In this document: piece by piece, positions 25,161-31,604 of the stretch
Position numbering within the stretch: the first letter of the stretch is position 1
How the letters are laid out: every line of letters starts with the position of its first letter
NCBI RefSeq assembly: GCF_032397745.1
Contig: NZ_CP135921.1
Location: 5,816,501 to 5,880,500, forward strand
Reading direction: 5' to 3'
DNA: 64,000 nt
Source: Bradyrhizobium prioriisuperbiae
GTDB taxonomy: Bacteria; Pseudomonadota; Alphaproteobacteria; Rhizobiales; Xanthobacteraceae
The notes under the pieces: generated by a model
Seen by the model: the letters and a program-made list of their open reading frames with translations, nothing else
Told to the model about the DNA's origin: nothing
Database searches by the model: none
Position numbers and translations under genes: made by a program

Positions 25161-25812
25161 GTGAGAAGCCGATGTTATTCCCGTGACAAACGCGAACTTC
25201 GCGACGTCCTCGGGACGTTCGTCACCGGCGTGACTATCGTGACGACGCGCGACCCGAGCGGAATTGGGCACGGAGTTACCGCGAACTCGTTCAGCTCTGT
25301 TTCCCTCGACCCTGCGCTCGTGCTCTGGAGCCAGTCGATGACATCACGCAGCCACAATGCCTTCAAGGAAAGCGATCATTTTTGCTGTTCACATCCTAGC
25401 CGAGGATCAGATCGAGATTTCCAACTATTTTGCAAAATCGCGGGACAACAAGTTCGATGGAATTGACCACGGCTTGGGGATTGCCGATCTGCCCATCATT
25501 GGTGGATGCGCGGCATATCTCGAATGTAGCAAGGTCGCCGAATATCCCGGTGGGGATCACATCGTGTTCCTCGGCAAAGTGGAGCGCTTCTATCGTTTTC
25601 CGAAGTGCCCCCTGGCATTTTACTGTGGCAAGTATGCGGTGGCGTCACCGCACGATGGCGTCCCAATCTCGCCCGGAGGCCGCGCGCAGCAGGAGAATTG
25701 CTCGATTGAACGGCCCGACGATCCTTTGAGCGCATCATCTCACAATGGGCTCGGTACGCCGCATGGTGAAGAGAGCCAAACGGCTTTGGCCGCCCGGCTT
25801 AAGACCGATTGA
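25161..25812 (+). pseudogene. Flavin reductase-family protein, broken by a +1 frameshift
   Basis: Both halves of a flavin reductase-like protein are present in different frames. The first reads [18 protein letters not shown] then [14 protein letters not shown] and NAFKESDHF; after a run of five Ts (about 25378-25382) the second continues as [19 protein letters not shown] to VFLGKVERF. Removing one T joins them exactly, so this is a homopolymer frameshift. The protein would have been the reductase of a two-component oxygenase. A sequencing error in the T-run would restore the gene, but its neighbours are also broken, so genuine decay is more likely. Confidence 0.8.
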
Positions 25813-25903
25813 GAAAAATACAAGCTGAGGGGCCGTTCCGCTAGAGTGCCTGCTTCGGCAGATGACGCTATGTGGTGTGCCTGGTTTGCTCGATGGCGGT
25901 TTT

Positions 25904-26647
25904 ATGATGCAGCGCTCTCAAAAACTCGATCCGGATGCCGTAGAGTACGCAATCACGTCTCGTCGCAGCATCCGAGCCTTCCTGCCGGAGCCCGTGTCGC
26001 GCGATACGATAGAACACCTGTTGAGAGTTGCAAGCCGAACCCCGAGCGGCAGCAACATGCAGTCTTGGCGCGTCCATGTACTACTCGGCATGGCGCTTGC
26101 GGAGTTGACCCGAGAACTATCGGCTTCACATCGGGCCGGAGAGCCGCCACGGAGCGAATACCACTATTATCCGACTGACTGGCGGTCGCCTTATATCGAA
26201 CGTCGTCGGAAAGCCGGGTGGGATCTTTACACGCTCGCCGGAATTGAGCGTGGCGATCGCGTGTCTAGCGAAAGACAACGAGGCCGCAACTACAACTTCT
26301 TTGGCGCTCCAGTCGGTCTGATATTCGTGATTGACAAATACCTTGAGCGCGGAAGTTGGCTCGATTTCGGGATGTTTCTTCAGAATATTATGGTCGCGGC
26401 CCGTGGTCGCGACACCTGTGCTCAAGCGGCGCTTGCCAATTTTCCAGCCATCACTCGACGCCATCTGGCCATACCCGACGACCAGATGATCATATGCGGT
26501 ATGGCTTTGGGCCGTGGTGATCCAGATGATGCGACCAACAGGTTGATCACCGGCCGACGTGGCCTTGGCCGTCGGCGCCGAGAAGATGTCGGGGCCGGAC
26601 AAGACGCGCACTGCGGCGATCTTCGACGGTTCGTGGGACGTCCATGA
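25904..26647 (+). CDS. Nitroreductase-family protein with a replaced C-terminus
   Basis: A 247-residue FMN-dependent nitroreductase-type protein. It contains the FMN-binding start (AITSRRSIRAFLPEPVSRD), the PSGSNMQSWRVHV segment and the late MVAARGRDTCAQAALANF block, up to GMALGRGDPDDATNRL. There family similarity ends: the last 35 residues are arginine-rich and out of frame with the thiolase sequence that occupies the same DNA. A deletion has evidently joined the end of this gene to the middle of a thiolase gene. The core fold is nearly complete, so activity is possible but uncertain. The ATG at 25904 is where homology begins. Confidence 0.75.
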   Translation: MMQRSQKLDPDAVEYAITSRRSIRAFLPEPVSRDTIEHLLRVASRTPSGSNMQSWRVHVLLGMALAELTRELSASHRAGEPPRSEYHYYPTDWRSPYIERRRKAGWDLYTLAGIERGDRVSSERQRGRNYNFFGAPVGLIFVIDKYLERGSWLDFGMFLQNIMVAARGRDTCAQAALANFPAITRRHLAIPDDQMIICGMALGRGDPDDATNRLITGRRGLGRRRREDVGAGQDAHCGDLRRFVGRP

Positions 26648-27045
26648 CGTCTTGCGCTCGACCGCAACGCTGCTTGCCCTCGGCGAGGGGATCGAGACGC
26701 CAGCTGAATTTCAAGACGCCGGCCCGCACAGCGTCTTCATGGATGTCTATCAGGGCTTCACCAAATTCCACATGCGCGAGTTTGGAACGACGGTCAGGCA
26801 ACTCGCGACCGTCTCGTCGAAGAATCATGTTCATTCCGTCGACAATCTCCGCTCGCAATATCGGCAAGCCTACTCGGTCGACGAGGTGCTCGCGGCGCGG
26901 ATGATCGCCTGGCCGCTGACACTGCCGATGTGTTCGCCAGTCAGCGACGGTGCGGCGGCGGCGATCGTGTGTTCGCCGGCTGCGTTGGCGAAGCTCCATC
27001 AGAGTCGAGTGGTGCAGGTGCGCGCTTCCGTGCTCGCGGCGGGTG
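26553..27045 (+). pseudogene. Thiolase (acetyl-CoA acetyltransferase-like) internal fragment
   Basis: The segment VALAVGAEKMSG, followed by FTKFHMREFGTTVRQLATVS, AYSVDEVLAARMIAWPLTL and CSPVSDGAAAAIVCSP, is the central part of an SCP2-like thiolase. The N-terminal part with the nucleophilic cysteine and the C-terminal catalytic CxG motif are absent. At its right end (about 27045) it is fused in frame to an acyl-CoA ligase, giving a long open chimeric frame that does not correspond to any sensible enzyme. Two deletions, one on each side, explain the structure. Confidence 0.8.
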
Positions 27046-28412
27046 GAGTCCTTCTCTGGGCGGGCAATAGTCCCGAGTATATCGAGGTGATGTTCGCCGC
27101 CTGGTTCGCCGGCGCGGTGATCGTTCCCGTCAACTTCGCGCTCCATCCGCGAGAGGTGGCTTCCATCGCTGAAGATTGCCGCGCCAAGGTCTGTTTCGCG
27201 ACGCTCGAAAAGATCGGCGAGTTGCAAGAATTCATGTCCTCGGAGAAACGCTGCACTCTGCCCATGGATGAAACCGCGCTGAAGACGTTGCGGGGAGAGG
27301 ACCGCGGCGTTGTTGATGTGGAGTTCTCGGACGTCGCATGGATCTTCTATACCAGCGGGACGACTGGGCGACCGAAAGGCGCAATGCTGAGCCACCAGAA
27401 CCTGCTGGCGATGACTTTTGCCTTCCTAGCCGATGTGGACGCCCTGTCGCCGCATGACTGCCTATTCCATCTCGCGCCGCCCCAGTCGCACGCGGGAGGG
27501 CTGTTGATGCTGCGCATATCATGAAGGGCACGCGAAATGTTATCCCTGATCCTGCGGGTTTCGATCCGGAAGAGGTGTGCCGCCTCACGAGAATATTCGG
27601 TTCGGTCAGCAGCTTCATGTCGCCGACTATGCTTGCACGGTTCGTCTCGGCGCCGTCTCTCGACAGCGATGTGATCGCAGAAACACGAACCATTCCTTGC
27701 GGTGGAGCGCCGATATACGCGGAAGACATGAAGCGTGCGCTGAAGGTGCTGGGTCCGAAGGTTTGGAATGACTATGGGCAAGGCGAATCGCCGTGCACGA
27801 TCTCGGGGCTCCCCAAAACCTGGTTGGCCGATCCATCGCATCCTGATTTCGAGCGACGTCTTGCTTCCGTCGGGGTCGCAAGAAGTGGCGTCGAGATCGC
27901 AGTACGAGCCCGGGATGGATCCTTGAGCCGAACGGGCGAGGGCGAAGTTGCCGTTCCCGGACCGGTGGTGATGAGTGGATATTGGGGCGACGAACCTGCG
28001 ACGCGTGGGGCAAGGATGGTTGATGACCGGCGACCTCGGCTTGATTGAGAGCGATGGTTTGTTGACGCTGAAGGGGCGGGCCAAAGAGCTGATCATAAGC
28101 GGCGGCTCCAATATTTATCCTCGAGAGGTCGAGGAAATATTGTTGAGACATCCAGGTGTGGCGGAAGTCGCGGTCGTCGGCACTCCGGATCCAGTATGGG
28201 GCGAGAACGTCGTAGCCTTCGTCGTGGCGCGCAATGGCAGCGAATTGTCGCCGTCCAAGTTGGACGAATTGTGCCTTTCGCAAATCGCGCGCTTCAAGCG
28301 CCCGTAGGAATACCACTTTGTACCTGATTTACCCAAGAATAATGCCGGCAAAGTCTTAAAACGTGAACTGCAGGCCACGCTAGGCGCCAAAGCCGATTGG
28401 GAACGAAAATAG
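27046..28412 (+). pseudogene. AMP-forming acyl-CoA ligase, N-terminally truncated with frameshifts and a nonsense codon
   Basis: Starts inside the ligase at LLWAGNSPEYIEVMFAAWF, fused to the thiolase fragment. The P-loop-like YTSGTTGRPKGAM is present. After SHAGGLLML a one-base deletion near 27510 shifts the frame to MKGTRNVIPDPAGFDPEEV; a further shift near 28010 is needed to reach GWLMTGDLGLIESDGLLTL and SGGSNIYPREVEEILL; a TAG at 28305 then interrupts FKRP before EYHFVPDLPKNNAGKVLKR, which carries the essential lysine and ends at 28412. The gene is dead several times over. Confidence 0.85.
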
Positions 28413-28681: not shown

Positions 28682-29149
28682 TTAGTCCTCCTCGGAGACG
28701 CCCTGATTTAATTCCGGAAGGCGAGCCATCATGCGGCGAAGGAAGACGAGAAGCTGTTCTTTTTCGCCCGGTGTGAAGTCGATTAGGAGGGAAGCCTCTC
28801 TTTGCAGCGCGACGACAAGAATCTTATCGTGCAAGTGCTTGCCGGATGGGCTGAGCGACCAAGTCCGGCCATTTACGCCTGTGTTCTGCACGAGACCACG
28901 ACCGTGCAGTGTATGCAGCGTACGGCTGGCGGGGGCCTTGTCCAAACCTATCACTTCGCAAACCCTTTTGGCGGTCGAACCGGGGTAGATCGCGAGCATC
29001 ACCATGATGCGCCACTCAACGACACCTACACCAAATCTTTGGAGATAAAGACGCGAAGCGCCTCGAGACAATTTATTCGATATGACAACGAGAAAGAAAG
29101 GAACATAGGAATCGACGTTTAGAAGACGGGAAGGTGATCTCTTTGGCAT
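28682..29149 (-). CDS. MarR-family transcriptional regulator
   Basis: A 155-residue MarR-type regulator: helical dimerisation ends flank a winged HTH (GSTAKRVCEVIGLDKAPASR, then the wing around LVQNTGVNGRTWSLSPSGK). The start is 44 bases from a MarR-type palindrome (29193-29221) in the divergent promoter region shared with the linalool dehydratase-like gene. MarR proteins usually repress the divergent gene until a phenolic or hydrophobic ligand binds, which fits a terpenoid-type enzyme as target. The gene appears intact, unlike the broken genes behind it. Confidence 0.9.
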   Translation of the reverse strand: MPKRSPSRLLNVDSYVPFFLVVISNKLSRGASRLYLQRFGVGVVEWRIMVMLAIYPGSTAKRVCEVIGLDKAPASRTLHTLHGRGLVQNTGVNGRTWSLSPSGKHLHDKILVVALQREASLLIDFTPGEKEQLLVFLRRMMARLPELNQGVSEED

Positions 29150-29192: not shown

Positions 29193-29221
29193 AGTTGCTA
29201 AAGTAAGTTGCTATAGCAACT
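29193..29221. promoter_or_regulatory. MarR-type operator: perfect palindrome plus an extra half-site
   Basis: AGTTGCTATAGCAACT (29206-29221) is a perfect 16-base palindrome. The half-site AGTTGCTA is repeated at 29193-29200, 13 bases from its copy in the palindrome. The block lies in the divergent gap between the MarR gene and the linalool dehydratase-like gene. Size and symmetry match MarR-family operators. Confidence 0.75.
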
Positions 29222-29502: not shown

Positions 29503-31107
29503 ATGACCACACTGCTGATGAGCAAGCCAGCGCAGCTTGAGAAGCCTGCGGCTCCCATCTTGTCGGACGAGCAGGTAGGGTCTCTCCGCCACATCGACAA
29601 CTTGTCCCGGCTACCCCGTGGGGACTGGCACCACATGACGGGGCCTCTGCCTTTGCAAGAGGACTTTAGCGCCTATCGTTACCAACTCGGCTACATGAGC
29701 TTGGCGCTGGCGCTCGCTCACTATCATCGTTTGCCGGCTGCACCAACTGTATTCCGGGGCACCCTGGACCGCCTGATCCAGCGGATGCTGGAGACCGACG
29801 TGTGGTGGTACTGGCGTGACACCAGTACGGCCGGCGGCGTCGCAGGTGTCCCGCTGCCGCAGTTGCAGAGCAAGACCGATCCCGTCGCCGTCGACAATAT
29901 CATGTACAGCGCCTACCTGATGGACATGACGCTGCTCTACACAATGCTGTTCGACGACCGCAAATATGAGGAGCCAGGATCTCTTACCTTCCGCGTCCAG
30001 CCGTTCTTATGGGGAGCTGATCGTCAAGAGGAGTTCCGGTACGACCAGCGTACATTGGTCGATCGCATCTACTGGAATCTGATTCAGAATGGCTACCTGG
30101 GAGTAGCCTGCGAGCCGTACTGCGTCTTCCAGATCTGCAATCAGGTTCCGATCCTCGGCTACCGGCTCCATGACCACATCTACGGTGGTGACCTCGCGCA
30201 AGAAGCCATGGATGGCTATATCAAGGCTTGGAGCGACTTTGGGGGTGGGGTGAATGAGCGCGGCCACTTCATCAAGTTCATCATTCAGCGCAACGAACTC
30301 CTTCCGAAGGATCTACCGATGGACGCGGACTCGCCGTTCGCGGACGCTTGGCTCGGACTCCTGTTGAACATGTGGCGGCCGGAGTTGGTCCGTAAGACCT
30401 ACAACGATAAGGTTGATCGGTGGCTAGACCGGACACCCGACGGCACTATCGGCGTCAACAATTTCGGGCGCCTGCCGGGCAGTCAAGATCTGGTTCAGCC
30501 GGGCACGCTCGGTGAGTTCGGATGGTTCGCCGGGTGGGCCTCGGAGATGGGCGACGAGGAGGTCGTAGCCGGCTTGCTTCGCCATGCCGATCGATTCATG
30601 AGCCCACGATGGGAGAACGGTGGGCTCTACTACCCTCGTCGCGACAATAGCCACGACGGCCAGGGTCGTTTCGTCAACATGACGCCGATCGTCAGCAACG
30701 CGATGATTCCCTACGCGCGCCTGAATGTTGCCGACGGCCTGCAAAAGCTTTTCCGACACCCCTGGACTGATCGTGAACGGTCGCGTCCAGCCCTGACGGA
30801 GCTGAGCGAAGAGGTCGACGTGCGTCGCGCCTGGTACCATGAAGAGAAGCGGAAGCTGCAGCTCACCCTCAGTCCTATGCGCGGCCTCGCAAAAACGACT
30901 GCGGAGCTCACGATCTCGTCGGTCTGGTCCGACAACTGGTCGCTCACCGTCGATGGTGTCGCAGTGGCCCGGGGGAGGGACGGGACTGTCGTCGCGACGG
31001 AAGCGGGGCGGCAGTTCGCACCCCGCAGGAGAGACAATCTGCTCGACCTTTCGCTACCTCTGGACCATGGCTCCCGGGATATCGAGATGACGTGGGGGGA
31101 GGCATGA
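29503..31107 (+). CDS. Linalool dehydratase/isomerase (LDI)-family protein
   Basis: A 534-residue protein of the (alpha/alpha)6-barrel LDI family. Residues reported for the Castellaniella enzyme that can be placed here by spacing: an Asp and Tyr six apart (Asp54 and Tyr60 in EDFSAYRYQ, for Asp39/Tyr45) and two cysteines nine apart (Cys203 and Cys212 in CEPYCVFQICNQ, for Cys171/Cys180). The catalytic His129 position probably falls in NIMYSAYL, where a Tyr stands instead; this alignment is from memory. The family interconverts linalool, geraniol and myrcene or dehydrates small alkenols. Unlike the periplasmic founder (about 400 residues with a signal peptide), this protein is longer and has no signal peptide. 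The ATG at 29503 lies 8 bases after GGAGG. It overlaps a SCO-like gene and faces a MarR gene. Confidence 0.8.
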   Translation: MTTLLMSKPAQLEKPAAPILSDEQVGSLRHIDNLSRLPRGDWHHMTGPLPLQEDFSAYRYQLGYMSLALALAHYHRLPAAPTVFRGTLDRLIQRMLETDVWWYWRDTSTAGGVAGVPLPQLQSKTDPVAVDNIMYSAYLMDMTLLYTMLFDDRKYEEPGSLTFRVQPFLWGADRQEEFRYDQRTLVDRIYWNLIQNGYLGVACEPYCVFQICNQVPILGYRLHDHIYGGDLAQEAMDGYIKAWSDFGGGVNERGHFIKFIIQRNELLPKDLPMDADSPFADAWLGLLLNMWRPELVRKTYNDKVDRWLDRTPDGTIGVNNFGRLPGSQDLVQPGTLGEFGWFAGWASEMGDEEVVAGLLRHADRFMSPRWENGGLYYPRRDNSHDGQGRFVNMTPIVSNAMIPYARLNVADGLQKLFRHPWTDRERSRPALTELSEEVDVRRAWYHEEKRKLQLTLSPMRGLAKTTAELTISSVWSDNWSLTVDGVAVARGRDGTVVATEAGRQFAPRRRDNLLDLSLPLDHGSRDIEMTWGEA

Positions 31108-31604
31108 CCGCTGGCGGGGCACCGACCGAACCTCGGTGGACGCTCACTGACCATCACGGTCGTCGCGTCACTGAGCGGGATTTCAGGGGCTGGTACGAGT
31201 TGGTCTTCTTCGGCTTCACCCACTGCCGAGTGGTGTGCCCTCGCGCACTGAGCAAGCTCACCGCTGTCCTGGACGACATCGGCGAGCTCGCCGAACGAAT
31301 TCAGCCGCTGTACATCTCGGTCGATCCAAAGCGCGACACGCCTGACGTCATGCGCGCGTTCCTCGAACAGAATTATCCCCACTTCCTCGGGTTGACCGGA
31401 AGCGTCGAAGAGACCGAAGTTGCCCGCAGCGCCTTCCGGGTTTTCGCTGGCCGCCGCGAAGACCCCGACGACCCGGACGGGTACGCCGTGCCGCACTCAG
31501 CTCTGACCTATCTGATTGACCCTGACGGACGCTACGTAACGCATTTCCCCGATGTGGCCGAAGCCGATCGCATCGCCGACAGCCTTAAGAAGCTCCTCTG
31601 CTGA
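31104..31604 (+). CDS. SCO1/SenC-family thioredoxin-fold protein without membrane anchor
   Basis: A 166-residue protein with the copper/thiol site of SCO proteins: Cys41-x3-Cys45 in FTHCRVVCP and the distant ligand His131 in VPHSALTYLIDPDG. SCO proteins normally deliver copper to cytochrome oxidase from a membrane-anchored periplasmic position. This one starts directly at the domain (MTAGGAPTEPRWTL) with no signal peptide or transmembrane helix, so it should be cytosolic. The start overlaps the LDI-like stop (ATGA), with a GGGGGGAGG ribosome site. Tight coupling to the LDI-family gene suggests it serves that protein, for example in disulfide or metal handling; this is inference. Confidence 0.82.
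   Translation: MTAGGAPTEPRWTLTDHHGRRVTERDFRGWYELVFFGFTHCRVVCPRALSKLTAVLDDIGELAERIQPLYISVDPKRDTPDVMRAFLEQNYPHFLGLTGSVEETEVARSAFRVFAGRREDPDDPDGYAVPHSALTYLIDPDGRYVTHFPDVAEADRIADSLKKLLC

Follow-up and report, generated by a model that had tools for sequence, protein, structure and literature searches.

In Castellaniella defragrans, the myrcene/geraniol pathway continues after linalool dehydratase (LDI, also written Ldi) with a geraniol dehydrogenase, a geranial dehydrogenase and a CoA ligase. SCO proteins, the second family considered here, are membrane-bound helpers of cytochrome oxidase that work outside the cytoplasm or in mitochondria. According to the accessible parts of the published accounts, the reactions known for LDI are C-O hydration, dehydration and isomerisation (PMC6600392, PMC4791888), and Ldi includes a capping disulfide, C48-C101, is oxygen-sensitive, and requires DTT and the reduced state of C170 and C179 (PMC6600392). 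In the linalool isomerase Lis of Thauera linaloolentis, as far as the available portion of its description extends, the LDI-like domain is placed on the cytoplasmic side and four transmembrane segments are predicted (PMC4791888). Sco proteins can serve as thiol reductases as well, as stated in the accessible part of a further report (PMC6696091).

The LDI and SCO families are both known. The pairing of their genes, a soluble branch of SCO and a fungal fusion of the two, which are described below, appear to be the new elements, as none of them was found in the open literature searched; a subscription paper could exist.

Results and discussion

The LDI and SCO genes of the window

The window, a stretch of 64,000 nucleotides from the genome of Bradyrhizobium prioriisuperbiae (9.08 Mb, single contig), includes an LDI-family gene followed by a SCO gene (Table 1). 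The product of the former gave a full match to PF18566 (Ldi) of 346.1 bits against a cut-off of 26.1, and GGAGG precedes its start codon. The latter, read from GTG 31092, matched PF02630 (SCO1/SenC) at 145.5 bits (cut-off 22.8). An earlier note on this DNA had the two genes overlap with the SCO gene starting at that GTG. The overlap stands, at 4 nt from ATG 31104, which is probably the best start as judged from the sequence; GTG 31092 is possible but less likely, because an overlap of 4 nt is the median spacing in the 66 loci where the SCO gene lies downstream.

Table 1. Positions of features of the LDI-SCO locus in the window.
Feature	Position	Strand	Remarks
MarR-family regulator, divergent from LDI	28682..29149	-	PF12802, 28.2 bits (cut-off 27)
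Perfect 16-bp palindrome AGTTGCTATAGCAACT between MarR and LDI	29206..29221	.	Candidate operator
LDI-family protein, 534 aa	29503..31107	+	PF18566 match; ATG start 29503
Tyr138 codon, at the place of LDI His129	29914..29916	+	Alignment NIMYSAY / NIMYKGH
Three-cysteine motif C203-E-P-Y-C207-V-F-Q-I-C212	30109..30138	+	Conserved in alignment rows
GGGGGGAGG, ribosome-binding-like sequence before ATG 31104	31094..31102	+	Inside the end of the LDI gene; putative function
Soluble SCO, 166 aa	31104..31604	+	PF02630; 4-nt overlap with the LDI stop codon (ATGA); alternative start GTG 31092

The LDI-family protein

The protein has the LDI-type (alpha/alpha)6 barrel, followed by a beta-rich C-terminal part, and is 19-20% identical over the barrel to C. 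defragrans LDI (PDB 5HLR, 5G1U and 5I3T). Foldseek matches to GH127 and other glycosidases, with E of about 1e-5 to 1e-4, were read as no more than a resemblance in fold.

In an alignment of 96 rows of the family, C203 and C212, which align with both active-site cysteines of LDI, are present in 96 of 96 rows and C207 in 95 of 96, and the residue at the place of the catalytic histidine is Tyr in all 96. The retention of the two active-site cysteines and the replacement of the histidine, both proposed in the earlier note, are features of the whole alignment. C203, C207 and C212 are the only cysteines of the protein, and a counterpart of the capping disulfide is missing. No hydrophobic stretch was found in the first 50 residues (17-residue maximum 0.39), as judged by the hydrophobicity of the N-terminus, in keeping with the lack of a signal peptide noted before, and the protein is predicted to be cytosolic. 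A further claim, that an Asp/Tyr pair of the known enzyme is kept, proved wrong or unproven: a 156-aa N-terminal query covering this region gave no PDB match, hhalign against a canonical-like protein aligned the region only with a nine-residue gap, and the pair is not a conserved feature of the LDI-SCO family.

The protein differs from C. defragrans LDI, then, in its predicted cytosolic location, in Tyr for His129, in the third cysteine, in the lack of the capping-disulfide cysteines, in the extra C-terminal part and in having a SCO partner of its own. It shares with Lis the cytoplasmic side on which the LDI-like domain is reported to lie, but differs from it in the four transmembrane segments predicted there.

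Conservation of the LDI-SCO pair

Scanning of genome contigs yielded 113 confirmed LDI relatives, and the 80 loci that were kept belong to Actinomycetota (37) and to Alpha- (26), Gamma- (10) and Betaproteobacteria (7). The search was seeded with peptide patterns that included the three-cysteine motif, which favours the three-cysteine subfamily and does not favour SCO. The profile used for SCO was derived from the protein of the window and from five fungal domains. An LDI-type SCO gene was adjacent (within 540 bp) in 71 of the 80 loci: downstream on the same strand within 120 bp in 64, at 535-537 bp in two, directly upstream in four, and divergent at a distance of 66 bp in one. Among the 66 downstream same-strand pairs, 51 overlap, with SCO starts picked by script near the domain, a choice on which both the overlaps and the N-terminal lengths depend.

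Of the other nine loci, three have the LDI-type SCO gene 1.3-8.2 kb upstream, one (L044) has only an oxidase-type SCO as neighbour and was counted as a miss, and in five none was scored. These five include L009 with a SCO remnant, L041, where the end of a SCO gene shows at the locus edge some 10 kb upstream, and L061, where the LDI gene lies at a contig end. When the whole genomes of the nine loci and of the divergent locus L076 were searched, an LDI-type SCO was found in 10 of 10 (194-267 bits; next SCO 132 bits). For L027, L068, L076 and L077 it was the one already seen in the locus, and in the genome of L009 it belongs to a second pair, L010. All 11 LDI-type SCOs of these ten genomes have a non-proline CxxVCPR motif, while eight of the nine lower-scoring SCOs read CPD and one CAEVCPT.

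The same association was seen in whole genomes, in which the best few LDI candidates per genome were scored. Among 337 genomes of the class to which the window belongs, any LDI match occurred in four, and matches above 700 bits at three places in two genomes; LDI-type SCOs above 250 bits were likewise found at three places in those same two genomes, the next SCO scoring 189 bits. LDI and LDI-type SCO genes are adjacent in genome G363, and an adjacent pair is present in G026 too. In the family of Amycolatopsis sp. GM8 (Pseudonocardiaceae by NCBI rank; 150 genomes), all eight genomes with a three-cysteine LDI hold an LDI-type SCO. By locus, SCO is adjacent in eight of ten three-cysteine loci there, one of these eight (L160) being partial as well, and the remaining two are a locus with a remnant and an LDI fragment. 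In a plasmid collection, 12 records match the window LDI, and the eight with at least 44% identity also hold the first eight ranks among 267 SCO matches; the two genes are adjacent in seven of these plasmids and about 10 kb apart in that of Variovorax.

The pairing is real and general, and the check for such pairs elsewhere that the earlier note had called for came out in its favour. Could the genes be neighbours by chance, or through shared regulation only, with no joint biochemical function? The neighbours of the pair vary between loci, so that the context does not define a shared pathway. On the other side, both gene orders occur, LDI-SCO in most bacterial loci and SCO-LDI in four loci and in fungal fusions, and the distances between LDI proteins are correlated with those between their SCO partners (r 0.62 for 106 pairs, where none of 1000 shuffles exceeded 0.12, and 0.49 when the 76 bacterial pairs are taken by themselves), a correlation to which host relatedness contributes. 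Given also the adjacency in 71 of 80 loci, the LDI-type SCO in the other nine genomes, the fusions and the separate branch formed by these SCOs, mere neighbourhood was rejected as highly improbable. That the SCO is dedicated to the LDI-family enzyme is well supported.

The remnant in L009 (L009:11602-11724, Amycolatopsis sp. GM8) lies behind an intact LDI gene and has lost approximately residues 42-116, CxxxC among them. Among named relatives, those nearest to the window pair are from Pseudonocardiaceae (64-67% identity for LDI and 69% for SCO), and metagenome proteins reach 75-96% identity to the window LDI. Transfer of the pair between phyla is possible.

Fungal fusions

In Dactylonectria, Fusarium, Ilyonectria, Aspergillus and Colletotrichum, SCO and LDI form one chain with SCO first. 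Of 188 proteins examined, 38 are longer than 600 aa and have an intact SCO motif, and 37 of these 38 carry the three cysteines and the Tyr; in the other one the cysteine motif was not found. The fusions that bear organism names are all fungal, though not every one of the 38 bears a name. Nine more proteins above 600 aa have no intact SCO motif near the start, and some of them are perhaps gene-model errors. The model of one fusion (P0049; pTM 0.77) shows two well-folded parts and, between them, a disordered linker some 18 residues long (170-187), which suggests a tethered partner, docking not being predicted with confidence.

A soluble branch of SCO

The window SCO reads CRVVCPR and PH, with CRVVC, Asp78 and His135 (numbered from the GTG), CxxxC and His being the putative copper ligands, and has no hydrophobic N-terminus. 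The earlier note had described it as keeping CxxxC and His without a membrane anchor. Both CxxxC cysteines, the His and the Asp are present in all 76 LDI-linked SCOs, the window one included; in the fungal SCO domains, His and Asp are present in 41 of 41 and each cysteine in 39 of 41.

These proteins share the thioredoxin-like family and the CxxxC, His and Asp residues with SCO/SenC of cytochrome oxidase assembly (human SCO1, Bradyrhizobium Blr1131), but differ in several respects. Their motif is C(R/K/A/Q)x(V/I)CP, followed by R in 72 of 76, and P precedes the His in 63 of 76, whereas CP(D/E/N)(V/I)CPT and DH are the motifs of 31 SCOs used for comparison, of which two come from the genome of the window and 29 from genomes of the same family. 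A hydrophobic N-terminal stretch was found in none of the 76 LDI-linked SCOs and none of 38 fungal fusions, as opposed to 29 of 29 oxidase-type proteins. In a tree of 57 rows made by a quick method (28 of the 76 LDI-linked SCOs, 10 of the 41 fungal ones and 19 of the 32 of oxidase type, with that of L044 counted among the last), the LDI-linked and fungal SCOs form one branch on a long stem (SH-aLRT 99), apart from the oxidase-type. Oxidase-type SCO genes are present elsewhere in the genome of the window (L003 and L004), and the window SCO is therefore an extra, specialised one.

The third cysteine

The third cysteine appears to go with the SCO. Ten LDI relatives with W, L or Q in its place had no SCO gene in the flanking DNA, which extended more than 5 kb on each side in L150, L151 and L152, but ended 0 to 1.4 kb past either end of the reading frame in L122, L126, L161-L164 and L167, where a SCO gene farther off is possible. 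In sphingomonads, a two-cysteine paralogue with the canonical His (NIMYSGH) occurs near the pair (L015:4278-5882, L044:15239-16804 and L060:3182-4696), and in L015 and L060 it is the three-cysteine gene, not the paralogue, that the SCO gene adjoins.

Possible role of the SCO

The pairing alone does not fix the chemistry. Taking delivery of copper and thiol chemistry jointly, it is likely that the SCO is a dedicated helper, and the single chain of the fungi together with the bacterial adjacency suggests that it prepares the three-cysteine site of the enzyme. This retains one half of the earlier proposal of a thiol or metal chaperone dedicated to a carbon-carbon lyase: the dedicated SCO is borne out by the 71 of 80 loci and the fusions, and the carbon-carbon lyase was rejected, since the LDI reactions known from the accessible parts of the literature are all of the C-O hydro-lyase or isomerase kind.

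Our preferred reading, whose chances we place a little short of even, is of a cytosolic catabolic enzyme with a three-cysteine site serviced by its own soluble SCO, most likely with copper(I). An enzyme of LDI fold would have three cysteines in the active site where LDI has two and a histidine; its small SCO partner would dock on it and deliver copper(I) bound by its own CxxxC and His. Copper delivery is favoured because the metal ligands of the SCO are kept in 76 of 76 bacterial cases, because a cytosolic copper site would need a chaperone whereas a cytosolic thiol enzyme has general reductants at its disposal, and because the added cysteine appears with the SCO. A fuller version is doubtful, namely a cytosolic cuproenzyme of the (alpha/alpha)6-barrel type with a Cys3, possibly Cys3-Met, copper site, which would carry out chemistry on alcohols or alkenes, perhaps with oxygen. 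Its metal would come from a soluble SCO no longer engaged in oxidase assembly, encoded beside it in bacteria and built into the same chain as a chaperone in fungi.

Several observations count against the preferred reading, among them the lack of a confident docking in the fusion model and the ability of SCO proteins to work as thiol reductases. The two-cysteine paralogues mentioned above lie near the pair in three sphingomonad loci, and in L044 the LDI-type SCO gene is about 10.8 kb from the three-cysteine gene, past the genes of the other paralogue. A ninth genome of the family of Amycolatopsis sp. GM8, G787, is an exception in that an LDI-type SCO was found there but no LDI with three cysteines. 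A weaker SCO of one genome (CAEVCPT; 121 bits, L146) is also without the CPD proline. Finally, a protein encoded by the Rhodococcus erythropolis plasmid pRSLBG43 (L147:8902-11394) has three cysteines, keeps the His and has an export-like N-terminus; no SCO gene was found on the 19.4 kb of this locus, and the protein, if exported, would be beyond the reach of a cytosolic SCO.

A reading close to that of copper delivery, possible but on balance unlikely, makes the SCO a dedicated thiol-disulfide reductase: C207, as a resolving cysteine, would pair in a disulfide with one of the active-site cysteines in the course of turnover or under oxygen, the SCO would reduce it again, and the LDI protein would be metal-free. 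The cytosol already contains general thiol reductants, however, and there is no obvious need in a reductase for the metal-binding His, which is invariant (76 of 76). The accompaniment of the SCO by the third cysteine fits a reductase too, as do, from the accessible parts of the reports, the oxygen sensitivity and DTT requirement of Ldi with its reduced C170 and C179 (PMC6600392) and the capacity of Sco for thiol chemistry (PMC6696091).

A lasting association of the two proteins, with the SCO as a structural or catalytic subunit that itself holds the metal at the LDI active site or transfers electrons, would agree with the fusion in fungi and the tight gene overlap in bacteria. It is considered improbable, as the disordered linker of the fusion model fits a mobile partner at least as well and, in some loci, 1.3-8.2 kb or more separate the SCO gene from that of LDI.

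If a soluble SCO branch is tied to one cytosolic enzyme in two bacterial phyla and in fungi, this would be a new use of the SCO family. The system can be tested as one of two things, a copper enzyme of the cytosol that has a chaperone of its own or a thiol enzyme that has a reductant of its own. It may also be relevant to how chemistry of the LDI type, which is sensitive to oxygen in the known enzyme, could proceed in other hosts. LDI-type enzymes are sought for the production of alkenes and terpenols, and their expression could be affected where a partner is missing.

Gene neighbourhood and regulation

Within 10 kb, an MDR alcohol dehydrogenase is encoded in 30 of the 80 loci, an aldehyde dehydrogenase in 28 and an AMP-forming CoA ligase in 30, as judged from clusters by sequence likeness of which a few members were checked with Pfam and NCBIfam. 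Any of the three families is present in 47 loci, all three in 15 and none in 33, the last figure counting against the reading with copper(I) set out above. Two of the alcohol dehydrogenases had benzyl alcohol dehydrogenase as their second-best PDB match, after one named only zinc-binding alcohol dehydrogenase. These neighbours fit a conversion of alcohol to aldehyde, acid and CoA ester by analogy with the pathway of C. defragrans, whose enzyme kinds recur near many LDI-SCO pairs, with the difference that the LDI-SCO enzyme is predicted to be cytosolic. The product of the enzyme would probably be a primary alcohol, formed from an allylic or tertiary alcohol and passed to the alcohol dehydrogenase, the aldehyde dehydrogenase and the CoA ligase in turn.

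Regulators near the pairs vary (TetR, MarR and Fis-type). In the window, the MarR protein probably controls the pair, and a promoter scan gave nothing above shuffles. Beside the window pair, at 25161-28307, lie broken or partial genes, among them a flavin reductase piece, a nitroreductase, a thiolase piece and an AMP-forming ligase whose parts lie in different frames, which are possibly decayed pathway genes or sequence errors.

A second copy in the same genome comprises MarR, LDI, transport and sugar genes, and SCO, with thirteen identified genes on one strand over about 15 kb. Between its LDI and SCO genes (L089:2957-18083) lie, on the same strand, two ABC transporters with sugar-type binding proteins, and aldose epimerase, gluconolactonase-like and GFO/IDH/MocA genes. 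A sugar as substrate was considered from these neighbours and dropped, because such transport and sugar-enzyme genes were not seen directly beside the window pair.

Other surroundings were seen in plasmid and membrane-type relatives. In L147, a gene for a His-rich DUF1942 lipoprotein-like product lies downstream of the LDI relative, with genes for ALDH, ADH and an AMP ligase beside it. A 734-aa two-cysteine relative on a Rhodococcus opacus plasmid (L150:7167-10436) is followed by a gene for Caa3_CtaG (PF09678), of an oxidase-assembly family. The genes of two membrane-type two-cysteine relatives (L151:4820-7969 and L122:77-2856) immediately follow one for a polyprenyl diphosphate synthase, which bears the annotation uppS in L151 and was recognised by eye from the sequence in L122, and in L151 a diacylglycerol kinase family gene follows. 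These membrane-type proteins may act on polyprenols.
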